From contig NZ_FCOE02000003.1 in assembly GCF_001544915.2 (NCBI RefSeq), positions 310,001-374,000 on the forward strand: a DNA stretch of 64,000 nt, read 5' to 3'. Position numbers and translations under genes: made by a program. Positions 7,422 to 64,000 of the stretch are shown here, piece by piece (positions within the stretch are counted from its first letter, which is position 1; the number at the start of each line of letters is the position of its first letter). The DNA comes from Caballeronia pedi (GTDB lineage Bacteria; Pseudomonadota; Gammaproteobacteria; Burkholderiales; Burkholderiaceae). Under the pieces are notes generated by a model that ran no database searches, was not told the origin of the DNA, and saw only the letters and a list, made by a program, of their open reading frames with translations.

Positions 7422-8345
7422 ATGGACCGCTGGACGCAATTGCAACTGTTTGTGCTCACCGCCGACCTAGGTAGCTTGTCGAAAGCTGCTGAGCAGCTTG
7501 ACATGTCTAATGCCGCAGCCAGCAGAACCTTAAGCTCGTTGGAGGAACATCTCGGAGCCCGGTTGATTGAACGCACGACACGGCGCATGTGGCTTACCGA
7601 TGCGGGCCGCGAATACCATCGTCGATGCACGGCCGTTATATCTGAGCTCGCTGAAGCTGACTCAATCGCGTCCGAAGAGGCCGTCAGCCCAAGAGGCGTT
7701 CTGCGAGTCACCAGCTCCGTGTCGTTCGCGATGATGCACATCGCGCCGGCGCTTCCCGAATTCCTCAAGCGATATCCGAATCTGTCGGTGCAAATCGTCG
7801 CGGCGAACCAGTATCAAAACTTCATCGAAGCCGGGATAGACATCGCCATTCGCACGAAGGAACACGAAGGAGACTCAGGCATTACCATCCGGCGGCTCGC
7901 CGAGACGCGACGGATATTGGCAGCGTCACCCGCCTATCTGGCCGAACACGGTCGCCCTCAGAGCCCCGAGGACCTCGAGCAACACAAGATGCTCGTCTAC
8001 AACTTGGCCGTCGACCCGTATCTGCTCCATCTGCGTCGCAGAGAGGAAGAACGCAATATAGCCATCACCAGTGCCTTGGATTCAAACGAAGGCCAAGTCA
8101 TCGTCGCGGCAGGTCGTGCGGGACTTGGCATCGTTGTTCAGCCTCTCTACATCATTCACGACGACATCGTGTCAGGGCGTCTCGTCCCAGTGCTCGAGGA
8201 TTGGCAGCTACCACGTCTGACCATCAACTTGGCTTATCAGAGCCGGCGTTACCAGCCGGCAAAAATTAGAGTTTTCACTGACTTCCTTATTGAGCGCGTG
8301 AAAAGCCTCAATCTCGAGGAACGCTGGATGACCTTTGCAACATGA
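7422..8345 (+). CDS. LysR-type transcriptional regulator
   Basis: The start is taken at ATG 7422 (MDRWTQLQLFV), where the LysR homology begins; upstream codons lack family similarity. The 307-residue protein has an N-terminal helix-turn-helix (about 5-62, SLSKAAEQLDMSNAAASRTL) and an effector domain with the CrgA-like SYL-type segment AASPAYLAEHGRP. It is divergent from the hydroxyquinol dioxygenase operon, with operator copy C in the shared region. That is the classic arrangement for a LysR activator of an intradiol pathway. It is the leading candidate to bind all four operator copies. Confidence 0.93.
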   Translation: MDRWTQLQLFVLTADLGSLSKAAEQLDMSNAAASRTLSSLEEHLGARLIERTTRRMWLTDAGREYHRRCTAVISELAEADSIASEEAVSPRGVLRVTSSVSFAMMHIAPALPEFLKRYPNLSVQIVAANQYQNFIEAGIDIAIRTKEHEGDSGITIRRLAETRRILAASPAYLAEHGRPQSPEDLEQHKMLVYNLAVDPYLLHLRRREEERNIAITSALDSNEGQVIVAAGRAGLGIVVQPLYIIHDDIVSGRLVPVLEDWQLPRLTINLAYQSRRYQPAKIRVFTDFLIERVKSLNLEERWMTFAT

Positions 8346-8398
8346 AGGAGGCACATCGCTTGAGGCTTCGGTGAATTGCCGCCGACTCATGTTCGACG

Positions 8399-8449
8399 AT
8401 ATTTCCGCCCAGCGAAAATATGATTTCGGCCCCAAGCATGTTTCTCGGC
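8399..8449 (+). promoter_or_regulatory. Composite operator, copy D (dehydrogenase/importer promoter)
   Basis: ATATTTCC (8399-8406), 7-nt spacer, GAAAATAT (8414-8421) form the dyad. A 13-nt spacer beginning GATTTC follows, then AGCATGTTTCTCGGC (8435-8449). This matches the downstream box of copies A and B at 10 of 15 positions. The element points toward the rightward gene at 8686, so its orientation relative to transcription is the same as in the other three copies. Confidence 0.55.
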
Positions 8450-8523
8450 GCAAACCGGCCATACCCTATAAGCACAAAATCCCACTCAGGGAACCGGCGC
8501 CAATGATGCCCCAGGAGACACCG

Positions 8524-8586
8524 ATGAATCATTCGCACTTCCTCGCCTCGCAATCGAGCGCTTCCTTTGTACCCGCCGGCTCCTAG
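8524..8586 (+). CDS. Possible 20-residue peptide
   Basis: ATG 8524 is preceded by AGGAGACACCG, a strong and well-spaced ribosome-binding site. The frame encodes MNHSHFLASQSSASFVPAGS and stops at TAG 8584-8586. It lies between operator copy D and the zinc dehydrogenase. It could be a short leader peptide, or the retained 5' end of a lost gene. Composition alone does not prove translation. Confidence 0.3.
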   Translation: MNHSHFLASQSSASFVPAGS

Positions 8587-8685
8587 TCAGTCGGCGCGGT
8601 AGGCACATTCACAACGCTTTCCATGTGCGGTAGACCTTTCGGTCTCTTCCGCCTAGGGCCTTGTTGTCTTCAATTTGAGGAAAAG

Positions 8686-9756
8686 ATGAAAGCCGTTCGT
8701 TTCCATGGCAAGCACGACCTTCGTATTGACGACGTAGAAGAACCCGGCGAGCTCGCACGTGACCAAGTGCTTGTCCGTCCGACCTTTTGTGGCATTTGTG
8801 GCACGGACCTGCACGAGTACGACCACGGTCCTACTTGGACGTCCGCAGATTCGAACCCCTATAGCGGCGCCGCGCTTCCGCAGATTCTCGGACACGAATT
8901 CTCCGGCGAAGTACTGGCGGTCGGAAGCGCCGTAACGAGCGTTTCACCGGGTGACCGTGTGTCCATCCAGCCTCAGATTGGTCCGCGCGAGGATTATTTC
9001 GGGCGTCGTAACCTGCCTTTCCTCGGCCCCAACGCCTCCGTCGTCGGTCTGAGTTGGCCCTGGGGTGGGATGGCTGAGAAGGCCATCGTCCAAGAGTCGA
9101 ACGCAATTGCGTTACCTCCGGATATCACGGACCAGCAAGGTGCGCTGGTCGAACCTGCAGCGGTAGGCGTGCACGCAGTCGACCGTGCGGGTATCAAGGC
9201 CGGGGACAGCATCCTGATTACGGGTGCCGGGACGATTGGCGCCATGGTGGCCCTCGCTGCGCGAGCGTCTGGCGTGACGAACATCTTTGTGAGCGAGCCC
9301 AATGCAAATCGTCGCGAGCGACTCGAGCGCATGGACATTGGGGTAACTGTTCTCGACCCTTTGTCTACTGATATCGCCGCGCATATTCGCAGCGTGACTC
9401 TCGAAGGCGTCGGTGTGGATGCGGCCATCGAATGCTCGGGCAATGGCCGAGCGTTCGATACCTGCATCGATTCGGTCCGTGCGCAAGGCGTCGTTGTCCA
9501 AGTCGGCCTGATGTCAGGAAGGGTTGAAGCCGACCCGTTCCGCTGGACGGTTAAGGACCTGACCATCAGGGGCTCGCTGAACTATCCACTCACCATCTGG
9601 CCGCGCATCTTCTCAATGATGCGCAGCGGACTATTCCCCGTCGAAAAGGTCGTCGATGCAGAAGTCGGCATGTACGACGTGAAGGAGCAAGGATTCGACG
9701 CGCTGCTGGCTCCTGGCAGCGCGAAGCTGAAGATTCTGGTCAGCGTGAATACATGA
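8686..9756 (+). CDS. Zinc-dependent medium-chain dehydrogenase, butanediol/sorbitol-type
   Basis: The start is ATG 8686 (MKAVRF), with GAGGAAAAG upstream. The 356-residue MDR protein has the catalytic zinc region FCGICGTDLHEY (Cys about 37) and GHEFSGE (His about 70). The Rossmann motif is GAGTIGAMVAL near residue 180. It is closest in pattern to 2,3-butanediol, sorbitol and threonine dehydrogenases. The loop that normally carries four structural-zinc cysteines (about residues 95-120) has none, so the structural zinc site appears lost. It is followed by the importer genes and probably oxidises the imported polyol or sugar. Confidence 0.9.
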   Translation: MKAVRFHGKHDLRIDDVEEPGELARDQVLVRPTFCGICGTDLHEYDHGPTWTSADSNPYSGAALPQILGHEFSGEVLAVGSAVTSVSPGDRVSIQPQIGPREDYFGRRNLPFLGPNASVVGLSWPWGGMAEKAIVQESNAIALPPDITDQQGALVEPAAVGVHAVDRAGIKAGDSILITGAGTIGAMVALAARASGVTNIFVSEPNANRRERLERMDIGVTVLDPLSTDIAAHIRSVTLEGVGVDAAIECSGNGRAFDTCIDSVRAQGVVVQVGLMSGRVEADPFRWTVKDLTIRGSLNYPLTIWPRIFSMMRSGLFPVEKVVDAEVGMYDVKEQGFDALLAPGSAKLKILVSVNT

Positions 9757-38588: not shown

Positions 38589-39254
38589 TTAAATGCCGAG
38601 GCTCAGTTGCGTCTGAGTTGGCACCGAGGCTCGACGCCATAGCCACGCGTCGAATTCCCGTCGCGGAAGCGCAAGAAGGTCGGCCGCGCAGCAGAAGGTT
38701 TTACGCAAGAAGTAGTAGTCGTCATTCTTGACCCCAGCCACTTTCGCAAACGTGCGGACGTGCCGGTCGACTGCAATGGAGTCGATTCCTACCAAGCAAG
38801 CCATGTAGTCGACGGTCTTCGGGCCGATGCCGTTCACCGACTGGATAGATTCGCAGAATTGCTCTGCCATGAGGCCGCGACGCAAGTCGTTCACATCCTC
38901 AATTCCGCCGGCCTCCAAAAACGAAACGAGCGCTTCGAACCGGTTCACCTTCTCATGATGGCGCCAATTCAGGAATGAACCAATTTCTCCCGCCCGAATC
39001 AGCGAGATGAGCGAAGAGACCGACTTCAGGTCTGGATATGTCCGAAGGATAGCCTGCACTCGGGGACGAACAACAGTCGCGTAATTGAGCCCCGCTTGTA
39101 GTACAGAATCTGCCAACACGGCGCCTAGATGTTCACACGTAGCACGCAGCGGTCGTCCTTCGTAAAATGCGCCTTCGCCCCTTGCGTGGTCGGCGATTCG
39201 ACGCGCAGCAAACAGGACCTCGAGTGCGGCGCCCTCTTCTCGAGACTTCTTCAT
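38589..39254 (-). CDS. HhH-GPD DNA glycosylase-like protein in the QueC/NDT operon
   Basis: The 221-residue protein has a helix-hairpin-helix near residues 138-150 (SVNGIGPKTVDY). Lys146 and Asp163 (AVDRHVR) stand where endonuclease III and OGG enzymes have their lyase Lys and catalytic Asp. No iron-sulfur cysteine set follows. It could remove a modified or damaged base from DNA or act on a nucleoside. Its ATG overlaps the QueC-like stop by 4 bp, so it is the last gene of a tightly coupled operon. HhH/OGG-like proteins also accompany QueC-like proteins in type IV CBASS, from memory. Confidence 0.85.
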   Translation of the reverse strand: MKKSREEGAALEVLFAARRIADHARGEGAFYEGRPLRATCEHLGAVLADSVLQAGLNYATVVRPRVQAILRTYPDLKSVSSLISLIRAGEIGSFLNWRHHEKVNRFEALVSFLEAGGIEDVNDLRRGLMAEQFCESIQSVNGIGPKTVDYMACLVGIDSIAVDRHVRTFAKVAGVKNDDYYFLRKTFCCAADLLALPRREFDAWLWRRASVPTQTQLSLGI

Positions 39255-39871
39255 ACTAGCTTCGCCTCCCTCAAGGCTTTAAGGCGCTCCACGCAATTTG
39301 GACACGCCCCGCAGGGAAACTGCGAAGCCGCTTGGCAAGAATAGGTCCGCCCCAAAGGCACGCCAAGCTCGACCGCAGCGCGTGCGACATCGGCTTTTGA
39401 TGAATAGCGAAATGGCGAGTGAAAGCGAACAGGCCCAATGTTCGATGTCAGGCCGTCAAGGTCATTCATGAAAGCTGCGGTGCAGTCGATTTCTTTCGCG
39501 TGATTGCTGTTGATGAAACCGGTATAGACATCAAGGATGCCAACGGTCTGGGCACGCGCCGCTGCGGCAGCAAAGAACAGCATTGTTCGATACGGTATGT
39601 ACAAATCATCGTCTTTGACCTCTTCAGTCCACAGGTCTGCTTCGCGAATCAGCCGCGAGTGCGAGCCTTTGAAGATGTCAGAAATGTTGAAGCGCTCAGG
39701 GCGAATCATGTCGGAAGGGAGAACCTCATTCACACGGTTCCATTCCATCTCGACGCAGTGTTGCCCGTAGTCGAAAAAAATTGGTACCACCGCGATGCCG
39801 CTTGATGCTAGCTGATAACCAACGGTCGTTGAATCTAAACCGCCGGAGGCTAGGAGAAGCACTTTTTTCAC
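39251..39871 (-). CDS. QueC-like 7-cyano-7-deazaguanine synthase family protein
   Basis: The 206-residue protein has the ATP-pyrophosphatase loop SGGLDSTT (residues 9-16), FFDYGQ, and the QueC zinc site C179, C187, C190, C193 (CGACPNC). QueC turns 7-carboxy-7-deazaguanine into preQ0 through an amide. No QueD, QueE or other preQ0 genes are near, so a housekeeping role is unlikely. It overlaps the PfkB-NDT gene by 4 bp at its start and the HhH gene by 4 bp at its end. QueC homologs are known in type IV CBASS (Cap9) and Qat (QatC). Here the partners differ. Confidence 0.9.
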   Translation of the reverse strand: MKKVLLLASGGLDSTTVGYQLASSGIAVVPIFFDYGQHCVEMEWNRVNEVLPSDMIRPERFNISDIFKGSHSRLIREADLWTEEVKDDDLYIPYRTMLFFAAAAARAQTVGILDVYTGFINSNHAKEIDCTAAFMNDLDGLTSNIGPVRFHSPFRYSSKADVARAAVELGVPLGRTYSCQAASQFPCGACPNCVERLKALREAKLV

Positions 39872-41202
39872 CGCGGTTTGCCCCTTAATTTGGCAACAAC
39901 ATTAAAAATCCCGTTGAGACATGCATCAAGGTCTGCGGAGTATACCGAACTTCCGACCATGACCATCGTATTCTCGTTTTCCCTTCGTGGGTCATAAGTC
40001 ACGACAGGCTTCCCCATCTGAATCGCCATACCAATCTCGACGAGCGTGCCAGGGTCACGCCCCAGAGGGACTGCGAAGACCGCATCGCAATCTTCGAGCA
40101 GGCGGAGGTCTTTATGGTAGGTGTGGTGCAAGTCTCCTGCTGTGGCCGGTCGCTGCAGTTCACCGTTTTCATGTACCGGGCGTCGAACGCGGAAGTTGTG
40201 GTACGAGAGGCTTTTGGCTGCGGCGTCCAACTCCGGCTTGTCTACATATGAGAAGTCGGGACCTGCAAGATAGATGGAGTACCGAGGTCTGTCATGCCAA
40301 GGAAGCGACGTTCCCCCAAGCGACTGCAGTGCTGACAGCCCTAGTAAAAAACAACGCTGCACATCCCGCCGAAAATCATCGGGGAATGTCGTCTGCGAAT
40401 ATATCGTTGCGGCCTGGCAGCCGCGCCACGCCGCTGCTGACCAACCGAGATTGGCTGCAAGCCCCACCAGAACGGCTGAATAGACGTCCCCTACGCCGAC
40501 AGAATTGACCGTCTGCCCTAACGTTGCGGGTATCTCCTCGACCGTATCACGGAGAATGTCGAACAGTCGGCTGCCCCCTCTATTCTCCTTCAGCAGCAGA
40601 ATCTTCGGCAGCAACGTTTTCGCAGCACTCACCAGTCCACTGACGTCATCCTTGCCGAGGCGTTCGAATAGGGCTGATGAGGTCGAGATGATGACCGCAA
40701 CGGTGCGCCCGCGAAAAGCGTCGAGGGAGGAGACGTCATCAAGGTCGTATGCGATGTCGAATGCAAAGGAAGCATCGGGCGCGAACGATGCAGCAAGCGT
40801 ATGCATGTCAAACCGGCCCGGAAACACCAGAACTTGTCGATAGGCCTCAAGCCCTTGTACCGGCTCTTGAAGCAACAGTTGCTTTCTGTCGCGCATCAAA
40901 TCTTCGTAACCCTGATGCCCGACTTCTGTTGCGTCTTGAATGATTACGACATTTGGTGCGCCGATGACATCGCCAAGCCAGATAAACTCTTTACACGAAC
41001 AACTCTCGAGATAGCTCTTCGCCTCATCTACAAGGTAGCGGGGACAAAAAGCCGCAACCGAGTATTCGATGTTTGCGGCCCAAAGCCCTCGTGCTGCGTG
41101 AGCAACGCCACCTAAGCGAAGTTTGCACATTAAACCGCTTTGAGGCAGCGTGAAATCAACAACCAGTTCGCCTACAACCAGCAGCGTCTCTGTAGCAGCC
41201 AT
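39868..41202 (-). CDS. PfkB-type kinase fused to nucleoside 2-deoxyribosyltransferase
   Basis: The 444-residue protein joins two enzymes. Residues 1-295 are a ribokinase/PfkB-like domain: GELVVDF at 11-17, GGVAHAA at 31-37, and the catalytic-loop motif VGVGD with Asp239. Residues 305-444 are a nucleoside 2-deoxyribosyltransferase: YLAGPDF 311-317, DCDAVFAV near 373, DPGTLVEIG with the nucleophile-type Glu389, then GKPVVTY. Together they could exchange the base of a (deoxy)nucleoside and phosphorylate the product, or the reverse. Two bases separate it from the upstream gene and it overlaps the QueC-like gene by 4 bp. Linkage to QueC suggests a 7-deazaguanine nucleoside as substrate; this is inference. 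Confidence 0.88.
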   Translation of the reverse strand: MAATETLLVVGELVVDFTLPQSGLMCKLRLGGVAHAARGLWAANIEYSVAAFCPRYLVDEAKSYLESCSCKEFIWLGDVIGAPNVVIIQDATEVGHQGYEDLMRDRKQLLLQEPVQGLEAYRQVLVFPGRFDMHTLAASFAPDASFAFDIAYDLDDVSSLDAFRGRTVAVIISTSSALFERLGKDDVSGLVSAAKTLLPKILLLKENRGGSRLFDILRDTVEEIPATLGQTVNSVGVGDVYSAVLVGLAANLGWSAAAWRGCQAATIYSQTTFPDDFRRDVQRCFLLGLSALQSLGGTSLPWHDRPRYSIYLAGPDFSYVDKPELDAAAKSLSYHNFRVRRPVHENGELQRPATAGDLHHTYHKDLRLLEDCDAVFAVPLGRDPGTLVEIGMAIQMGKPVVTYDPRRENENTMVMVGSSVYSADLDACLNGIFNVVAKLRGKPR

Positions 41203-41204
41203 GG

Positions 41205-41591
41205 TTATTGCGGCACAAAGTCGGCTTCGATGGTCGGCACCGGTTTCGCCGCCGATTGTCTAGCTACTCCAACATAAGTGACACCAGCAGCCAGACACGC
41301 TGCGAGGTAGTTAAACGCGGTCGGAAGCGCGCCCACTGTTAACCCGTTGACGTCGACCGCAAAAACGCGTGGCGGGTGAAATGCGATGCTGAGCTGAGTA
41401 CCGATGGCCGGTACCGCCGTGAACTGCGAATAGAAGGCACACTGGGCGACGTCTTCAAGCACGCAGCTAAACGCCTGTTTGCACTTGTCAACGCCGCTTG
41501 TGCCACCCGTCGTGCCGATTCCTTCACCTTCTGCATTCTTGGATTTCGAGCCAGGATAATCCGAAAGCGAACCCGAGCCGGAGCTGCCCAT
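41205..41591 (-). CDS. Small protein with Gly/Ser N-terminal tail, first gene of the QueC/NDT operon
   Basis: The 128-residue protein starts MGSSGSGSLSDYPGSKS; removal of Met would expose an N-terminal Gly on a flexible tail of about 35 residues. A compact domain follows (about 38-128), with PAIGTQLSIAF, VFAVDVNGLTVGALP and a final VGV strand. The pattern loosely recalls HIRAN-like barrels, but I cannot assign it. GAGGGA lies before the ATG. QatB and the type IV CBASS nucleotidyltransferase, which partner QueC homologs, also have Gly-rich N-termini (recalled, not checked). A conjugation substrate is therefore a reasonable hypothesis. Confidence 0.75.
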   Translation of the reverse strand: MGSSGSGSLSDYPGSKSKNAEGEGIGTTGGTSGVDKCKQAFSCVLEDVAQCAFYSQFTAVPAIGTQLSIAFHPPRVFAVDVNGLTVGALPTAFNYLAACLAAGVTYVGVARQSAAKPVPTIEADFVPQ

Positions 41592-42694: not shown

Positions 42695-43210
42695 TCAACG
42701 CGCTGCGCGCAAGAAGATGATGTCGGCGTTCATTCTAGGCTTGTGCTCACCGTGATATGAAAAAACCTCGCGGTCCAGCGCCGACCAATATTGAACGGTA
42801 TCGGGCTCAGGTTCGAACCCGGTCTCGGCATCGATAAAATCAAGGTCGCTAGGGAGACCGATTGGCGAGTTCTTCTGCACGTAGATGCTCAAAGCGGCTT
42901 TGCGACGCACGCATTCGAGCACTGCATTCATGCAAACGCCAGATATTACAACAACTGTCGATACGGAAAGCTCGGCACGTAGCTTCGACTCGAGCGTCGA
43001 CCTGTGCAGAGCGTTGACAAAGTGTCCCCTCTCCTTATCTATGTAGGAATCAAGGTCCACCATTGAGTAACCAACCACTTTGGCGACCTTGGCAGCCAAG
43101 GTGGTCTTCCCTGCGCCGGGACAACCGTCGAACGAGACAATGCCTTTCGGTATCTCTCGAATTGCGTCCACGAGTTCGCCTAGCTCTCGAATCTCGATTC
43201 GGCTTTTCAT
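42695..43210 (-). CDS. Small P-loop kinase-like protein
   Basis: The 171-residue protein has Walker A GCPGAGKTT (residues 29-37). DLDSYIDKERGHFV, like the DD segment of nucleoside and shikimate kinases, follows, then a hydrophobic strand VVVISGVC like a Walker B region. The size fits an uridine/adenylylsulfate kinase-like phosphotransferase. The substrate is unknown. It is followed on the same strand by nothing closely coupled. A second, unrelated P-loop kinase lies at 56539. Confidence 0.82.
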   Translation of the reverse strand: MKSRIEIRELGELVDAIREIPKGIVSFDGCPGAGKTTLAAKVAKVVGYSMVDLDSYIDKERGHFVNALHRSTLESKLRAELSVSTVVVISGVCMNAVLECVRRKAALSIYVQKNSPIGLPSDLDFIDAETGFEPEPDTVQYWSALDREVFSYHGEHKPRMNADIIFLRAAR

Positions 43211-43257
43211 TTATGCATTGGAGATGGTATCACCGCCTGAATGGGACAAGCGCGTGC

Positions 43258-44118
43258 TCAATGTGGCAGTGGGCCGTTGTGCACGCGAGCGTGACTCACA
43301 GGATAGAGCGCGTTGTGCCAATCGTCATTCTCAAACTCTCCTACCGGCTGACCAGTGCTTGCTTCGACGTAGTCGATGACCGCGCACAAGCGGTCCGCAT
43401 AGTTTTGGCAGACGCCCTGATTGAAGAATGGAAGCACAGAAATGCGCGTCGCTTGCATCTGCCCAGAGAGTTGGGCGAACTGAGACGCCCCGCGCATATA
43501 TTCCGATTCGAGCACGTCCTCGACCGCCATGCCGATGTTAGCACTTACGCTCGGTGCATAAGCTGCAATCCAACGCTGAAGTTGCTGCTGGAAGACCTCA
43601 TGTGTCTTACCAATCCAGTCAGCATAGGGCTGTTGCACGGGATAACTCGCGGGAGAAGTCGCCAAGATGTTCAAATGTTGTGCCTCTTGGGCGAAATGTG
43701 TCTTGACGAAATCTCGGTAAGACCGAAGCGCCGGCACCGGCTGAGCCTCGGTGGAGCTTCGATATATGTCAAACAGGATTCCGCGAATATGACGGCTTAG
43801 GGCGTAATTTAACTTACGAAGTCCAGTTTGCTCGCGCTTCTTCGCCTCCGTTTGTTGGCGTATTTCCAAAATGCGGTCGTATGCCACGATGAGCAGCAGA
43901 GAAGTCAGCAGCCCCGAACCGAAATTCTGCAAGAGTCCGGACCACCAAGCGTCAACATATTTCGACAGCACGATGAGGACCAACGCAACGACCGCAATGA
44001 CCAAGCACGCGGCGAGACGAGATTTTAGCGGATTGAATCGTTCCATTCGGGGACGGACAAGGTCGAGTTGCGTGACGGCCGACACGGCCGCGCTAAAAAG
44101 AGATGGTCGCAAATGCAT
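43258..44118 (-). CDS. Two-TM protein with soluble C-terminal domain
   Basis: The best start is uncertain: ATG 44118 (MHLRPSLFS) or ATG 44046 (MERFNPLKSRL), neither with a strong ribosome-binding site. Two membrane helices (LAACLVIAVVALVLIVLSKY and a second, LLTSLLLIVAYDRI) lie near the N-terminus. About 200 helical, soluble residues follow. This layout is common for membrane effectors and sensors, but no family was recognised. It lies 80 bp after the SH3-domain gene on the same strand, and the two probably form a pair. Confidence 0.7.
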   Translation of the reverse strand: MHLRPSLFSAAVSAVTQLDLVRPRMERFNPLKSRLAACLVIAVVALVLIVLSKYVDAWWSGLLQNFGSGLLTSLLLIVAYDRILEIRQQTEAKKREQTGLRKLNYALSRHIRGILFDIYRSSTEAQPVPALRSYRDFVKTHFAQEAQHLNILATSPASYPVQQPYADWIGKTHEVFQQQLQRWIAAYAPSVSANIGMAVEDVLESEYMRGASQFAQLSGQMQATRISVLPFFNQGVCQNYADRLCAVIDYVEASTGQPVGEFENDDWHNALYPVSHARVHNGPLPH

Positions 44119-44197
44119 CAGCGACGCCGGTGGCGATGGCAGGCGTCCCAACGGTGAGTTCTGGCGATTTGAATTTGGAGCCAGTGGGTTCGACTGC

Positions 44198-45292
44198 TCA
44201 CCGAGCGAAGGCGGACGTATATCGCAGCAGCACCCAGCCGCTTTTGAGTTCACCCGTGTCGGCGTCGAGATACTCAATATCGAGCCATGCGCCGTCTTTC
44301 TTCATACTTCGTACGACCTTCCCAAAGCGCAGGACATCGATGACCGGCGACCTGACCTTCGGATTTTGATGAACCGTAAGCTTGGTGGCAGTCGTGAAGC
44401 GCAGATACGGCCGCTCGGCGGCAGAAAAGAGGTCTAGGCCACGAGCGTTGACTTCCTTCTTGGCTTCGCGCGGCGAAAGATGCAATATCCCTTCTCCGAA
44501 ATCAACGAGCTTCGGATAGACGTAATTCTGGACACATGCCTCTAGAAGCTGAAGGACGAACCAGAGCAGAACGCCTCGGGCGAGGAGCCCCGCGCCCGCG
44601 AAACTGCTAAGCGTCGCCCATAACTCAGACGACGTCGCAGAATTGCGCACTGCGTCGTTGAACGCTTCAACCTCCTCTTTCTCGTTGGCCGACGCTGTTT
44701 GAAAAGACTCAAGCTGCGCCTCCGTGTCAGCCGGCACCGCAGGGTCCGCTATCTGGCTATCGAGGAAGCCAGATACCTGCTCAAGTAATCTTGACAGGTC
44801 GTTCGTCGGGGTCGCGCGGGCGAGCGCCGAGAAGTGCTTCTCGAGGACTGACGCTTGGCTATGCGCATGCTCCATCCAGCGGCTCGCGCTTGAAGCGACG
44901 TCGTCGAGCGAAGATTGCCGACGACCGAGAGCCATCTGCCAACGAGATACATCTTGTGCGAGCTTCTCCAATGGCGATTCGAATCGCTTGATTGAGGCGG
45001 CCAGTTGCTCAAACTTCGAGATATGCGTTTCGAGAAGACCCTGGAACTTCGGAATGTGCGGCTCAAGAAAAACGTCCAGTGACTGCACCTTCGCGTCCCA
45101 AGCGGTCATCGACTCGCGAATCCGGTCGAAAGCAGTGTGGTGTCGCTGCAGATTGGTCAGGAGCGCCTCTTGGAGCGCTAGGCTGGTGCCAAAAGCTTCG
45201 TCAATCGGAGTTTTGCGGCTTTCGGCGCTGCCGAACACCTTGCCTACTTCTGATTGAACTCGGTCCAGTGCGTTTGGATTCGACTTCGACAT
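44198..45292 (-). CDS. Coiled-coil membrane protein with bacterial SH3 domain
   Basis: The 364-residue protein has a long helical N-terminal region (about 1-220) rich in heptad-like patterns. One hydrophobic segment follows near residue 240 (GLLARGVLLWFVLQLLEA). The C-terminal SH3-like domain has the family form TVHQNPKVRSPVIDVLRFGKV and DGAWLDIEY, then SGWVLLRY. In known proteins such domains bind peptides or walls. Together with the next gene it may form a membrane complex. No family name can be given. Confidence 0.82.
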   Translation of the reverse strand: MSKSNPNALDRVQSEVGKVFGSAESRKTPIDEAFGTSLALQEALLTNLQRHHTAFDRIRESMTAWDAKVQSLDVFLEPHIPKFQGLLETHISKFEQLAASIKRFESPLEKLAQDVSRWQMALGRRQSSLDDVASSASRWMEHAHSQASVLEKHFSALARATPTNDLSRLLEQVSGFLDSQIADPAVPADTEAQLESFQTASANEKEEVEAFNDAVRNSATSSELWATLSSFAGAGLLARGVLLWFVLQLLEACVQNYVYPKLVDFGEGILHLSPREAKKEVNARGLDLFSAAERPYLRFTTATKLTVHQNPKVRSPVIDVLRFGKVVRSMKKDGAWLDIEYLDADTGELKSGWVLLRYTSAFAR

Positions 45293-45831: not shown

Positions 45832-47394
45832 TTATTCCCATCCGTAGGCGGCACGGTCGTACAGACACGCGAGCTTACGGAACGCAGTGGAATAAGGCGA
45901 ATTGCTGAATTTGTCAGCGTGCTCGACCAGAAAGTCATGAATCAGTTGGTAGTCGTCCCGCGTCCACTTGGCAAACGGAAGATACTGCGCAACGATTTCA
46001 GGTGGGCGCCGCTGAATCATCTCCCAGACTGACTGGTCCTTGTAGTTCCGCCGAAAGCCTTTAAGGAGCCCCTTCGGCCGAAACGCTTCCGGCTTCAATT
46101 TCACGTACTTGTCGACTTCGAAGGCGGACGCCTCGTACTCCTGCGCCGACGTGATACCCGCTGCACGAAGAAGGAAGAATACCGGCAGATACGTCAAGCC
46201 CTTCGATAGTTGCGGCATCGCCTCGGCGAGCACACGCGCGGCGTCGTAGCCTTTGTCCTTGAAAACAAGGTCCTGGAACAAGTTCAGTGGCACAATCGCC
46301 TTGTAGCCAACGTCTGCCAAGCGATTGCGCTCTTCTTCAGCACGCTCGGCGGCCACGCCAACGCCCACAACGAACTCGATATCCTGGCGACCGTTGACCT
46401 GGTCGACGTCCACGACGCAGAGCTTGCCTTGCGGGTCGCTCGTCTTTACCAGTTCATAGAGCTGCTCTTTGCAATAGCGAAGGACACGCGCGGGAATTTT
46501 GCGCTTGGTCGAGTCGATAGCCTCGTATACGCCGGTGAATGACGCAGCTTTCACGAGCGTGATGGGAATCTGGACTGTCTCGAGAGCAATAACGGTCTGC
46601 GCCACGGAGTCGGGTTCGCCTTCATGCGCGCGTTGAACGAAAATCAGATTGTTGTTCAGCTGCTGCAACTTTTCCTGACCGATGCAGGCACAAATCGCCT
46701 TCAGCAACGAGATGATGTTCCTGTCGCTCAACGAATAGCCCATGAACACGACCGGATGTTCGACGAAAATCGTGATGAGCTTGGCGGCGAGGTATGCGTT
46801 GCGCTCGTTGAAGTCCTTATAGTCGGGCTCGGTCAGCACCAGGCTGCGCGGCGTGTTCACGCAGCCGTGAATTTTGTAGATTTCGCCGATGGACTGCGGG
46901 TTCGAAAACAGCAATTCATCCTGCCCGACATATACACGGTAGTCGGGAAACAGGCTTTGCAGGAATGTATCCCAGTTGGTCGTGATGATGCCGTCCACGT
47001 TCAACCGGCTGAGCGCGGCAATCTCGTCACCGTACTTGTGCTGGCTCAGGTCGGGCAATCCCGCGCTCTTCAAGTAGTCGCAAATCTCAACCCGCAGCGG
47101 GCCGGTGCGCTCACCGATGTTCTTTCCGTGTTTTTCGCGGCTCGCGGCATACGCCTCATGGGTCCACCAGACTTCGTGAAAATCCTCCGCCATCAGGGCG
47201 GCCACCTTCGGCAGGTCGCCGTTTGCTGATGATAGGTAGTACTCGTAGGGCTTGATGTGCTCGCAAAAGCGACGAAGCAGGCCTTCCCAATCCTCGAGGT
47301 TCAGATACCGACGGGACAATCCTGAGCCTGCAAACAGGAAGGGGCCGGAGTTGTGAGCCTGGAGGTGCTTCGCGAGAATCTCGGAGATATTCAT
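45832..47394 (-). CDS. SIR2-domain protein, candidate NAD-depleting defence effector
   Basis: The 520-residue protein has a SIR2-like N-terminal domain (about 1-290): GSGLS at 23-27, TTNWD at 138-142, H176 in KIHG, and GYSLSD at 219-224. These correspond to the NAD-binding and catalytic motifs of defence SIR2 proteins such as DSR1, ThsA and SIR2-HerA. The C-terminal 230 residues, with no recognised domain, may sense the trigger. No HerA, Ago or Thoeris partner is adjacent, so it would be a stand-alone system. It lies in the accessory island. Confidence 0.85.
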   Translation of the reverse strand: MNISEILAKHLQAHNSGPFLFAGSGLSRRYLNLEDWEGLLRRFCEHIKPYEYYLSSANGDLPKVAALMAEDFHEVWWTHEAYAASREKHGKNIGERTGPLRVEICDYLKSAGLPDLSQHKYGDEIAALSRLNVDGIITTNWDTFLQSLFPDYRVYVGQDELLFSNPQSIGEIYKIHGCVNTPRSLVLTEPDYKDFNERNAYLAAKLITIFVEHPVVFMGYSLSDRNIISLLKAICACIGQEKLQQLNNNLIFVQRAHEGEPDSVAQTVIALETVQIPITLVKAASFTGVYEAIDSTKRKIPARVLRYCKEQLYELVKTSDPQGKLCVVDVDQVNGRQDIEFVVGVGVAAERAEEERNRLADVGYKAIVPLNLFQDLVFKDKGYDAARVLAEAMPQLSKGLTYLPVFFLLRAAGITSAQEYEASAFEVDKYVKLKPEAFRPKGLLKGFRRNYKDQSVWEMIQRRPPEIVAQYLPFAKWTRDDYQLIHDFLVEHADKFSNSPYSTAFRKLACLYDRAAYGWE

Positions 47395-63325: not shown

Positions 63326-64000
63326 TCAAGCGGCCTGCTCCCAGTAAAGGTGCAGGAATCGCTGCACGTCAGCGTTTGTGACGGGGTATCGCTCGAGCCA
63401 TGCGTCGACCTCCTTCTGTGTGGCAAGGGTAACGTTGTTGCGGCGCGCCTTTTCTCTGGCTGTCTCGTTGAAGAACTGGTTCGTCGCAGCCCATTTTGAG
63501 AAATGCACACCCGGGTGCCGAAGCCTATACTCCGCTTCAGCACACACCACGTCTTTGACGCCCTCGTCGTTCAGGCAGGCGTTGATGGCACCCGAGCTTT
63601 TGCATTGAATGAGGTCTCCGGCATTGCCGGTGAAAGCAACCACATCGACACCGCCGTCGCGGGCCGGTGTCCGGTACACGGTCCGGAAGCCCTTCTTCTG
63701 CCAGACCGCCGCGACATACGCTTCGAAATAGTCCCATTCCATGCGCAGGACATCGTCTAGCGTTACCGCGCGGTTGAAGGTCTCGTCGTTAGCGCCGTCC
63801 GGGATGATGTCCTGGATGTTCCAGTCCGAGGGCATCACGGTGCCTGAGCCGTCGAGCATGTCGTTCGCGAGCCTGCGCTTAGAGTTCAGCAATTCGTTCA
63901 AGCGAACTTCGAACGTCTTGAAATCCTCTGCGCTCACAATGGGCAGGTAGACGAAGACTTCCCGCTTCTGGCCGATGCGATACGCGCGGTCTGTCGCCTG
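63326..64000 (-). CDS. C-terminus of a SNF2-type helicase fused to an Mrr-like nuclease domain (partial)
   Basis: The frame is open to the window edge. The first visible residues, read from 64000, are QATDRAYRIGQKREVFVYLPI, helicase motif VI of SNF2 proteins. A linker and a PD-(D/E)xK nuclease domain follow: WQKKGFRTVYRTPARDGGVD then FTGNAGDLIQCKSSG, with the Asp and the QCK of the active site. The protein ends YWEQAA. The 5' part lies beyond the window. Such fusions are typical of defence or restriction-like systems. Confidence 0.85.
   Translation of the reverse strand, partial: QATDRAYRIGQKREVFVYLPIVSAEDFKTFEVRLNELLNSKRRLANDMLDGSGTVMPSDWNIQDIIPDGANDETFNRAVTLDDVLRMEWDYFEAYVAAVWQKKGFRTVYRTPARDGGVDVVAFTGNAGDLIQCKSSGAINACLNDEGVKDVVCAEAEYRLRHPGVHFSKWAATNQFFNETAREKARRNNVTLATQKEVDAWLERYPVTNADVQRFLHLYWEQAA

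Follow-up and report, generated by a model that had tools for sequence, protein, structure and literature searches.

The window, a stretch of 64,000 nucleotides of Caballeronia pedi (contig NZ_FCOE02000003.1, positions 310,001 to 374,000), contains a module of four packed genes on its minus strand. They encode, in this order, a small protein (SP), a PfkB-like kinase fused to a nucleoside 2-deoxyribosyltransferase (NDT), a QueC-like enzyme, and an HhH glycosylase. The module probably serves anti-phage defence by conjugating a nucleobase to the N-terminus of a protein, a reading drawn from sequence comparison. Its features, in window positions, are as follows.

41205..41591 (minus): SP, 128 amino acids, with the N-terminal tail MGSSGSGSLSDYPG, a Gly/Ser-rich linker, and a conserved C-terminal domain
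41550..41591 (minus): tail of SP, MGSSGSGSLSDYPG, codons 1-14, defined by conservation in 59 unique SP sequences
39868..41202 (minus): PfkB-like kinase fused to NDT (PfkB-NDT), 444 amino acids, with Asp239 and Glu389
39251..39871 (minus): QueC-like enzyme, 206 amino acids, GTG start, with an SGGLDS loop, YGQ(x)5E, and a four-Cys zinc site
38589..39254 (minus): HhH-GPD glycosylase of the OGG type, 221 amino acids, with Lys146 and Asp163

The SP and NDT genes are separated by 2 bp, and the NDT/QueC and QueC/glycosylase pairs overlap by 4 bp each. The tightly packed four-gene operon described by the initial annotation is confirmed by these open reading frame coordinates. Promoter and terminator scans gave results close to shuffled expectation.

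The gene set and its order are found in many other genomes. A scan of a genome collection with four QueC-like queries of the window type gives 56 loci, consisting of 52 near relatives (L010-L061, 61 to 89% identical) and four distant loci, which were set aside (L062-L065). The 52 related loci keep the gene order and contain QueC (52/52), the glycosylase (52/52), NDT (51/52), and SP (48/52). SP is missing from L011, L045, and L058, three loci at contig starts that also truncate NDT; the first and last of these come from different contigs of a single genome. In L056 (Bradyrhizobium sacchari, 7459-9277), SP and NDT are gone, and a truncated dGTPase runs into QueC. By their record titles, the hosts are alpha-, beta-, and gammaproteobacteria, and one deltaproteobacterial metagenome-assembled genome. 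Viral contigs (IMG/VR) have 51 QueC loci, 13 of which are of the window type, called subtype I. These comprise SP in 13 (one partial), NDT in 13 (one with a broken frame), QueC in 13, and the glycosylase in 11, the two others stopping at contig ends. All four genes are present in 3/3 plasmid relatives (L004-L006).

Searches from the two ends of the module give the same arrangement. Of 15 viral loci found from SP, 14 have NDT directly downstream and one (L284) ends at SP; of 15 found from the glycosylase, 13 have QueC directly upstream, and L293 begins at the glycosylase. These viral sets overlap, as 13/15 on the SP side and 11/15 on the glycosylase side are on contigs already known from the QueC search. 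Distant members include L298, with all four genes and the tail MGSTGTGRFGNYRIG, and L286, whose contig stops after SP and NDT and whose SP has the tail MGSSGSGKFGTYRIG. Because the four genes recur in one order, the set is not due to chance. The initial annotation had named a lack of co-occurrence of the four homologs elsewhere as grounds for its refutation; this was checked, and they co-occur. The module is rare and scattered, like defence genes. With the window PfkB-NDT as query, 3/300 genomes of the order match, and only its own genome in full. A profile of the sister form called subtype II, described below, matches 18/398 genomes of the phylum at 1e-10, 6 of them, besides the window's own, near full length. 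PfkB-NDT is without a match in 50,697 phage isolate records.

SP has no match in Pfam, PADLOC, or NCBIfam. Conserved sites of the four proteins come from alignments in which rows without a start or with stops were excluded and duplicates were merged, leaving 59 unique sequences of 64 for SP, 62 of 65 for NDT, 63 of 68 for QueC, and 59 of 63 for the glycosylase. For SP, the start nearest to the one expected from the alignment was taken, and residue 1 was entered as Met. The SP start motif is MGS[ST]GSGx[FL][ST]DY[PS]G, with Gly2, Asp11, and Tyr12 in 59/59 sequences, Ser6 in 58/59, Ser3 and Gly7 in 57/59, and Gly5 in 54/59. The mean frequency of the majority residue is 0.845 at positions 2-14, 0.46 in the linker at 15-31, and 0.62-0.63 elsewhere; positions 2-14 tie with 87-99 as the best-conserved window of 13 residues. 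A Gly/Ser tail that is as conserved as the core, and sits on a variable linker, has the look of an enzyme substrate. A small residue at position 2 permits removal of the initiator Met, and Gly2 is the predicted nucleobase acceptor after this removal. The initial annotation had a Gly-tailed small protein; its tail stands, and is placed here at the N-terminus and described as Gly/Ser-rich, and the predicted role of this N-terminus as acceptor is a proposal of the present analysis. The CD-NTases of type IV CBASS carry an MGGS tail and QatB an MGTS tail, and a change of Gly2 to Asp kills defence in both type IV CBASS and Qat (PMC13279940). These tails are shown or proposed to be the acceptors of the QueC-family enzymes of the two systems. 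A search for the fold of SP gave no credible solved relative, and an S-layer match (per-domain E 2.7 or worse) was rejected. One subtype II SP has a PUA_4 match of 2.2e-4, which is under the cut-off.

The QueC-like enzyme matches PF06508 (E 1.5e-31) and the PADLOC QueC model PDLC00911 (2.6e-24). Residues S9, G10, G11, D13, S14, Y35, Q37, E43, R95, D129, C179, C187, C190, and C193 are invariant (63/63), and the zinc motif is CQ(x)6CxxCxxC. The window group has LxSGGxDS, YxQ(x)5E, DCxxxF, and PF(x)4K of the Cap9 motif set, and departs from it in the Tyr, the RN, and the E and D of the zinc motif (PMC13329287). With PDLC00911, which is a CBASS QueC model, the window enzyme scores 84.4 bits, L012 82.5, L298 88.8, subtype III 99.3, and subtype II (L007) 52.4, compared with 48.1 for the canonical QueC of the window's own genome, the sole control. 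In a 40-row QueC tree, the three subtypes are each one clade, with support of 99/98, 100/98, and 100/100.

In PfkB-NDT, the NDT domain matches PF05014 (5.1e-16) and the PfkB domain matches PF00294 at 0.0038, below the Pfam cut-off; there is no PADLOC match. Kinase Asp239 and NDT Glu389 are present in 61/62 rows. The remaining row is gapped there and is probably the short open reading frame of the viral contig L071, whose NDT frame is broken. The glycosylase has no Pfam match above the cut-off and matches the PADLOC OGG model PDLC00910 (4.9e-9). Its Lys146 and Asp163 are invariant (59/59); glycosylases without a usual start codon, in L015, L018 (with its viral copy L066), and L035, were omitted from this alignment. 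The catalytic and zinc-site residues named in the initial annotation thus hold across the relatives of QueC (63/63), kinase and NDT (61/62), and glycosylase (59/59).

Subtype II was found through plasmid searches, which gave 11 plasmid loci (L007-L009 and L117-L124). Its gene set is SP, PfkB-NDT, and QueC-like enzyme, with an OGG on either side. Ogg-HhH passes Pfam in 7/7 candidates tested (L117, L118, L121, L133, L150, L151, and L152), and the OGGs of L119 and L120 are so named by annotation. The zinc motif CH(x)5CxxCxGC of most aligned rows is the Cluster 4 motif of PMC13329287, and YGQ(x)6E of Cluster 4 in that paper reads YGQ(x)5E in subtype II rows. Profile comparison shows SP of subtype II to be a homolog of SP of subtype I (hhalign probability 97.7, E 1.3e-12). 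Among 14 aligned rows, subtype II SPs start with MSG in 10 and with MSS, MGG, MCG, and MTG in one each, giving Gly at position 3 in 13/14 and a small residue at position 2 in 14/14. L131, L132, and L153 have no SP among the listed open reading frames, beyond which no further search was made.

Many subtype II loci also have a gene for 220-240 amino acids after QueC (L007:7279-7959, L117:5789-6478, L119:5792-6466, L133:3352-4044, L134:3328-4014, and L150:7702-8427). It is annotated as nitroreductase in L007 and L117. A generally nitroreductase-like fourth gene was rejected, as only L117 passes Pfam (1.9e-7); L119, L133, L134, and L150 have no Pfam match at 1e-3. On a Roseivivax plasmid, the subtype II module has beside it a transporter of the VUT family (L120:6504-7043), whose annotation is queuosine salvage. 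This transporter might supply a deazaguanine to the system.

Subtype III occurs on rhizobial plasmids (L125:3995-8357, L126:3953-8364, and L135, of which the PfkB and TIR-TGT part was examined). It contains PfkB, in which an NDT domain was not detected, a TIR-TGT fusion, an HhH lyase, QueC, and a small ThsB-like TIR protein. The TGT is Cap10-like, matching the PADLOC CBASS TGT model PDLC00913 (1.8e-22) and TIGR00432 (1.1e-9) in L125, which is where a TGT-like Cap10 is seen among the scanned loci. The HhH lyase matches Ogg-HhH at 9.7e-25, yet has no PADLOC OGG match. The ThsB-like TIR protein starts with MGGGSSGSWS; the two tails known are near-identical and are counted as one case. Subtype III links type IV CBASS and the window module, because it combines the TGT and tailed protein of the former with the PfkB, QueC, and HhH glycosylase of the latter. 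This TIR form is a TIR relative of type IV CBASS.

The genomic setting is one of defence and mobile genes. In the window, a defence gene is found about 4 kb upstream of the module and outside it:

45832..47394 (minus): SIR2 defence protein, PADLOC PDC-S25, 2.8e-183

Open reading frames in the flanks of 20 loci (a random 110 of 170) match 173 PADLOC models at 1e-15, compared with 4 for control frames of the same 20 genomes some 68-121 kb off (110 of 216); these are counts of models, many redundant, and not of genes. The 25 Pfam families listed of 84 in the flanks include phage portal, capsid, terminase, and integrase families, plus housekeeping ones, and the 25 listed of 108 in the controls look like housekeeping. 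Several copies of the module lie amid portal, capsid, and terminase genes, which would suit a prophage toxin-antitoxin or genome-competition cassette and not host defence. Such a cassette is a poor prospect, since the window copy sits amid the SIR2 defence gene and metabolic genes, plasmid copies exist, and the four proteins match no toxin family in Pfam, PADLOC, or NCBIfam. The Rhodobacterales-type copies L039, L040, L044, L046, L050, and L051 have the same phage-like neighbours in common, and this shared neighbourhood is likely a cargo site. Between the module and SIR2, positions 42695-45292 of the window encode a P-loop kinase-like protein (SKI 2.8e-6), a second protein that lacks a Pfam match and by eye seems to be membrane-bound, and a third whose end resembles SH3_3. 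At the window edge (63326-63937), a protein matches the Mrr-like C-terminus of ZorD (PADLOC 1.4e-22).

Relatives of dGTPase are present in the flanks of 8/52 genome loci, 3/11 subtype II plasmid loci, and 0/20 controls. N-glycosidic bonds are the target of glycosylases and NDTs alike. These features, with dGTPase as a recurrent neighbour, are consistent with a sensor in which OGG and NDT free an unusual base from phage DNA or deoxynucleoside monophosphates, QueC tags SP, and the tagged SP triggers an effector. This arrangement is unlikely, as no constant effector was seen among the neighbours of the module and just 8/52 loci have a dGTPase nearby.

The N-terminal conjugation reading may be described step by step; the reaction, the order of its steps, the base, and the effect on phages are what we infer. 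The initiator Met of SP would be removed, which would expose Gly2 on the flexible, conserved tail. The QueC-like enzyme would then join an ATP-activated guanine-type base to the Gly2 amine, as its homology to Cap9 and the tail suggest. The model for this joining step is Cap9 acting on CD-NTase, together with the proposed action of QatC on QatB. From its family and from the place that TGT holds in the related systems, NDT may act at the N-glycosidic position of the base, by exchange or transfer of deoxyribose. PfkB, judged by its family, would phosphorylate the sugar, leaving SP with an attached nucleoside or nucleotide. The OGG-type glycosylase may make or break the same bond in DNA, or act on the tagged base, and could be a supplier, a sensor, or an effector. 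The anti-phage outcome is suggested by the setting. The distinct QueC-based system of the initial annotation, with a likely protein conjugate and a probable anti-phage role, is supported because of the four-gene order, the invariant sites, the Gly tail, and the defence-island or prophage setting.

Several observations weigh against this reading or parts of it. The base pocket differs from that of Cap9, because Glu127 replaces the Tyr of YPDC (E127-I-D129-C130) and Thr96 replaces the Asn of VPxRN (R95-T96), both in 63/63 rows. In a PDB profile search, the window QueC group slightly favours canonical 2pg3 (8e-15) over Cap9 (1.1e-13), followed by canonical 3bl5 (1.2e-11), and in the QueC tree Cap9 is a long branch of uncertain position. 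PDLC00910 is uneven among relatives of the window glycosylase (7.7e-8 in L012, 1.5e-4 in L046, and none in L298 and L125), and it also matches HhH genes in four further genomes (G668, G652, G322, and G501). Those of G668, G652, and G322 sit beside integrases, and no QueC was recognised by eye among the listed open reading frames near any of the four. Descent from type IV CBASS is therefore not claimed from the OGG match, as the model matches these other HhH genes, and matches some relatives of the window gene barely or not at all. L296 (4857-5531) is a lone glycosylase relative with phage-like neighbours and no module genes in the preceding 5 kb, dGTPase is present in 0/13 viral loci, and the PADLOC figures for flanks and controls count models, many of them redundant. 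The remaining points concern the base and its supply.

The base pocket of Cap9 uses Tyr115 for stacking and Asp117 to recognise the Watson-Crick edge of the base; QatC carries Thr in place of each (PMC13279940). By the alignment, the window enzyme appears to keep the guanine-edge Asp as Asp129 and to have lost the stacking Tyr. The genome of the window has a separate canonical queC-queE-queD cluster, in which queE is a profile match below the cut-off and queD was recognised by reading the open reading frame. The pathway genes were searched in 49 of 51 distinct host genomes (L045 and L055 left out). Canonical QueC, besides the module copy, is present in 31/49 hosts at 2e-54 or better, and the best remaining match in the other 18 is 1.1e-8 or weaker. 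QueE, searched with a 13-row profile, is present in 28/49 at 4.6e-57 or better, and 21 have nothing better than 9.9e-13. The 18 hosts without QueC are all among the 21 without QueE. QueD (PTPS) is missing from 14 of these 18, and TGT is present in 17/18, as expected of queuosine salvagers. The modules of these hosts hold all four genes or nearly so. Since canonical QueC and QueE are undetected, 18/49 hosts have no known source of 7-carboxy-7-deazaguanine (CDG).

Such hosts may acquire CDG by an undescribed route, may carry an idle module, or may use a different base. A narrower form of the conjugation reading, in which the base is CDG as in Cap9 and the module of queuosine-less hosts is idle or supplied in another manner, is possible yet doubtful. 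It agrees with Asp129, which aligns to the guanine-edge reader of Cap9 and is kept in 63/63 rows, with QueE in 28/49 hosts, and with the queC-queE-queD cluster of the window genome. The QueE profile derives from QueE sequences of the hosts themselves, and G685, G688, and G697 have QueC without a QueE match, so that some QueE genes may have escaped the search or be lacking from the assemblies. Against CDG stand the change of Tyr to Glu127 and the 18 hosts with complete or nearly complete modules. CDG as a general base was set low after the QueE, QueC, and QueD searches. For subtype I, a guanine-type base other than CDG is judged no less likely than CDG itself because of Glu127, the guanine-centred partners (OGG, TGT, and dGTPase), and the hosts without a known CDG source. 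In its full form, this alternative would free nucleobase-protein conjugation from 7-deazaguanine: the base would be supplied by the glycosylase and NDT of the operon, and by the neighbouring dGTPase, and joined to the Gly tip of SP, after which PfkB-NDT would yield a protein-linked nucleotide or deoxynucleotide that acts against phage; this chain of steps is rather unlikely as a whole. The 7-deazaguanine basis proposed by the initial annotation is not borne out, given the 18/49 hosts without canonical QueC and QueE, the 14 without QueD, and the invariant Glu in place of Tyr.

The N-terminal conjugation reading places the module close to several known systems. Type IV CBASS (Cap9-Cap10-Cap11) contains a QueC-like ligase and an OGG-like glycosylase, to which the window enzymes may correspond, and, like the window, a partner with an N-terminal Met-Gly-Ser tail. 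Cap11, a name used in the initial annotation, is presumably this OGG. In contrast, the window has PfkB-NDT in place of an adjoining CD-NTase or TGT, its putative acceptor is an unrelated small protein, and the Tyr of the base pocket is Glu. No match to CD-NTase, TGT, KAP ATPase (QatA), or TatD (QatD) is found among the 10 neighbouring proteins scanned between 36229 and 47394, in line with their absence in the initial annotation; the whole genome was not searched for CD-NTase. The qatABCD system is similar in having a QueC-family protein and a tailed partner, which is MGTS in Qat (PMC13279940). It differs from the window, which lacks adjoining KAP ATPase and TatD matches, has another base pocket, and has an enzyme of 206 and not about 400 amino acids, without N- and C-terminal extensions. 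Canonical QueC shares the fold family, the ATP loop, and the zinc site. The window enzyme, in contrast, scores 93.3 bits against a cut-off of 150.3 in NCBIfam TIGR00364, lacks the YPDC Tyr and the VPxRN Asn, and coexists with a separate canonical copy in its host.

The NDT and PfkB families include salvage enzymes, and purine salvage would have PfkB-NDT and the QueC-like enzyme recycle or modify free nucleosides. This has been proposed for the sister group, Cluster 4, in which PfkB-NDT is found in about 89% of neighbourhoods and, as in the window, precedes the QueC-like enzyme (Libby et al. 2026, PMC13329287). The window SP has homologs at loci with the Cluster 4 zinc motif. However, the window enzyme lacks CH(x)5CxxCxGCxK and belongs to a separate clade, and the glycosylase and the fourth gene differ. 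Simple salvage was given a low probability because SP is tailed and the setting is one of defence, and is very improbable for the window: it leaves unexplained a partner of 128 amino acids with a near-invariant tail, the defence, prophage, and plasmid setting, and the glycosylase. The terms 'glycosylase' and 'small protein' do not occur in the main text of PMC13329287. Protein deazaguanylation was reported in 2025 (PMC11996544). Among the titles listed in a search of the open-access literature, which did not cover subscription papers, only PMC13329287, PMC13279940, and PMC11996544 bear on the module, and none of these, in the parts consulted, describes SP with PfkB-NDT.

If the conjugation reading is true, with another acceptor and, in queuosine-less hosts, another base, making nucleobase-protein conjugates for immunity would be a general role of the QueC family. 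The TGT and OGG of type IV CBASS would then share one logic: the base, once attached as a tag, is processed at the glycosidic position, for which one branch uses TGT and another uses NDT and a kinase. This would also offer a different reading of the Cluster 4 QueC proteins, which are now filed under purine salvage.

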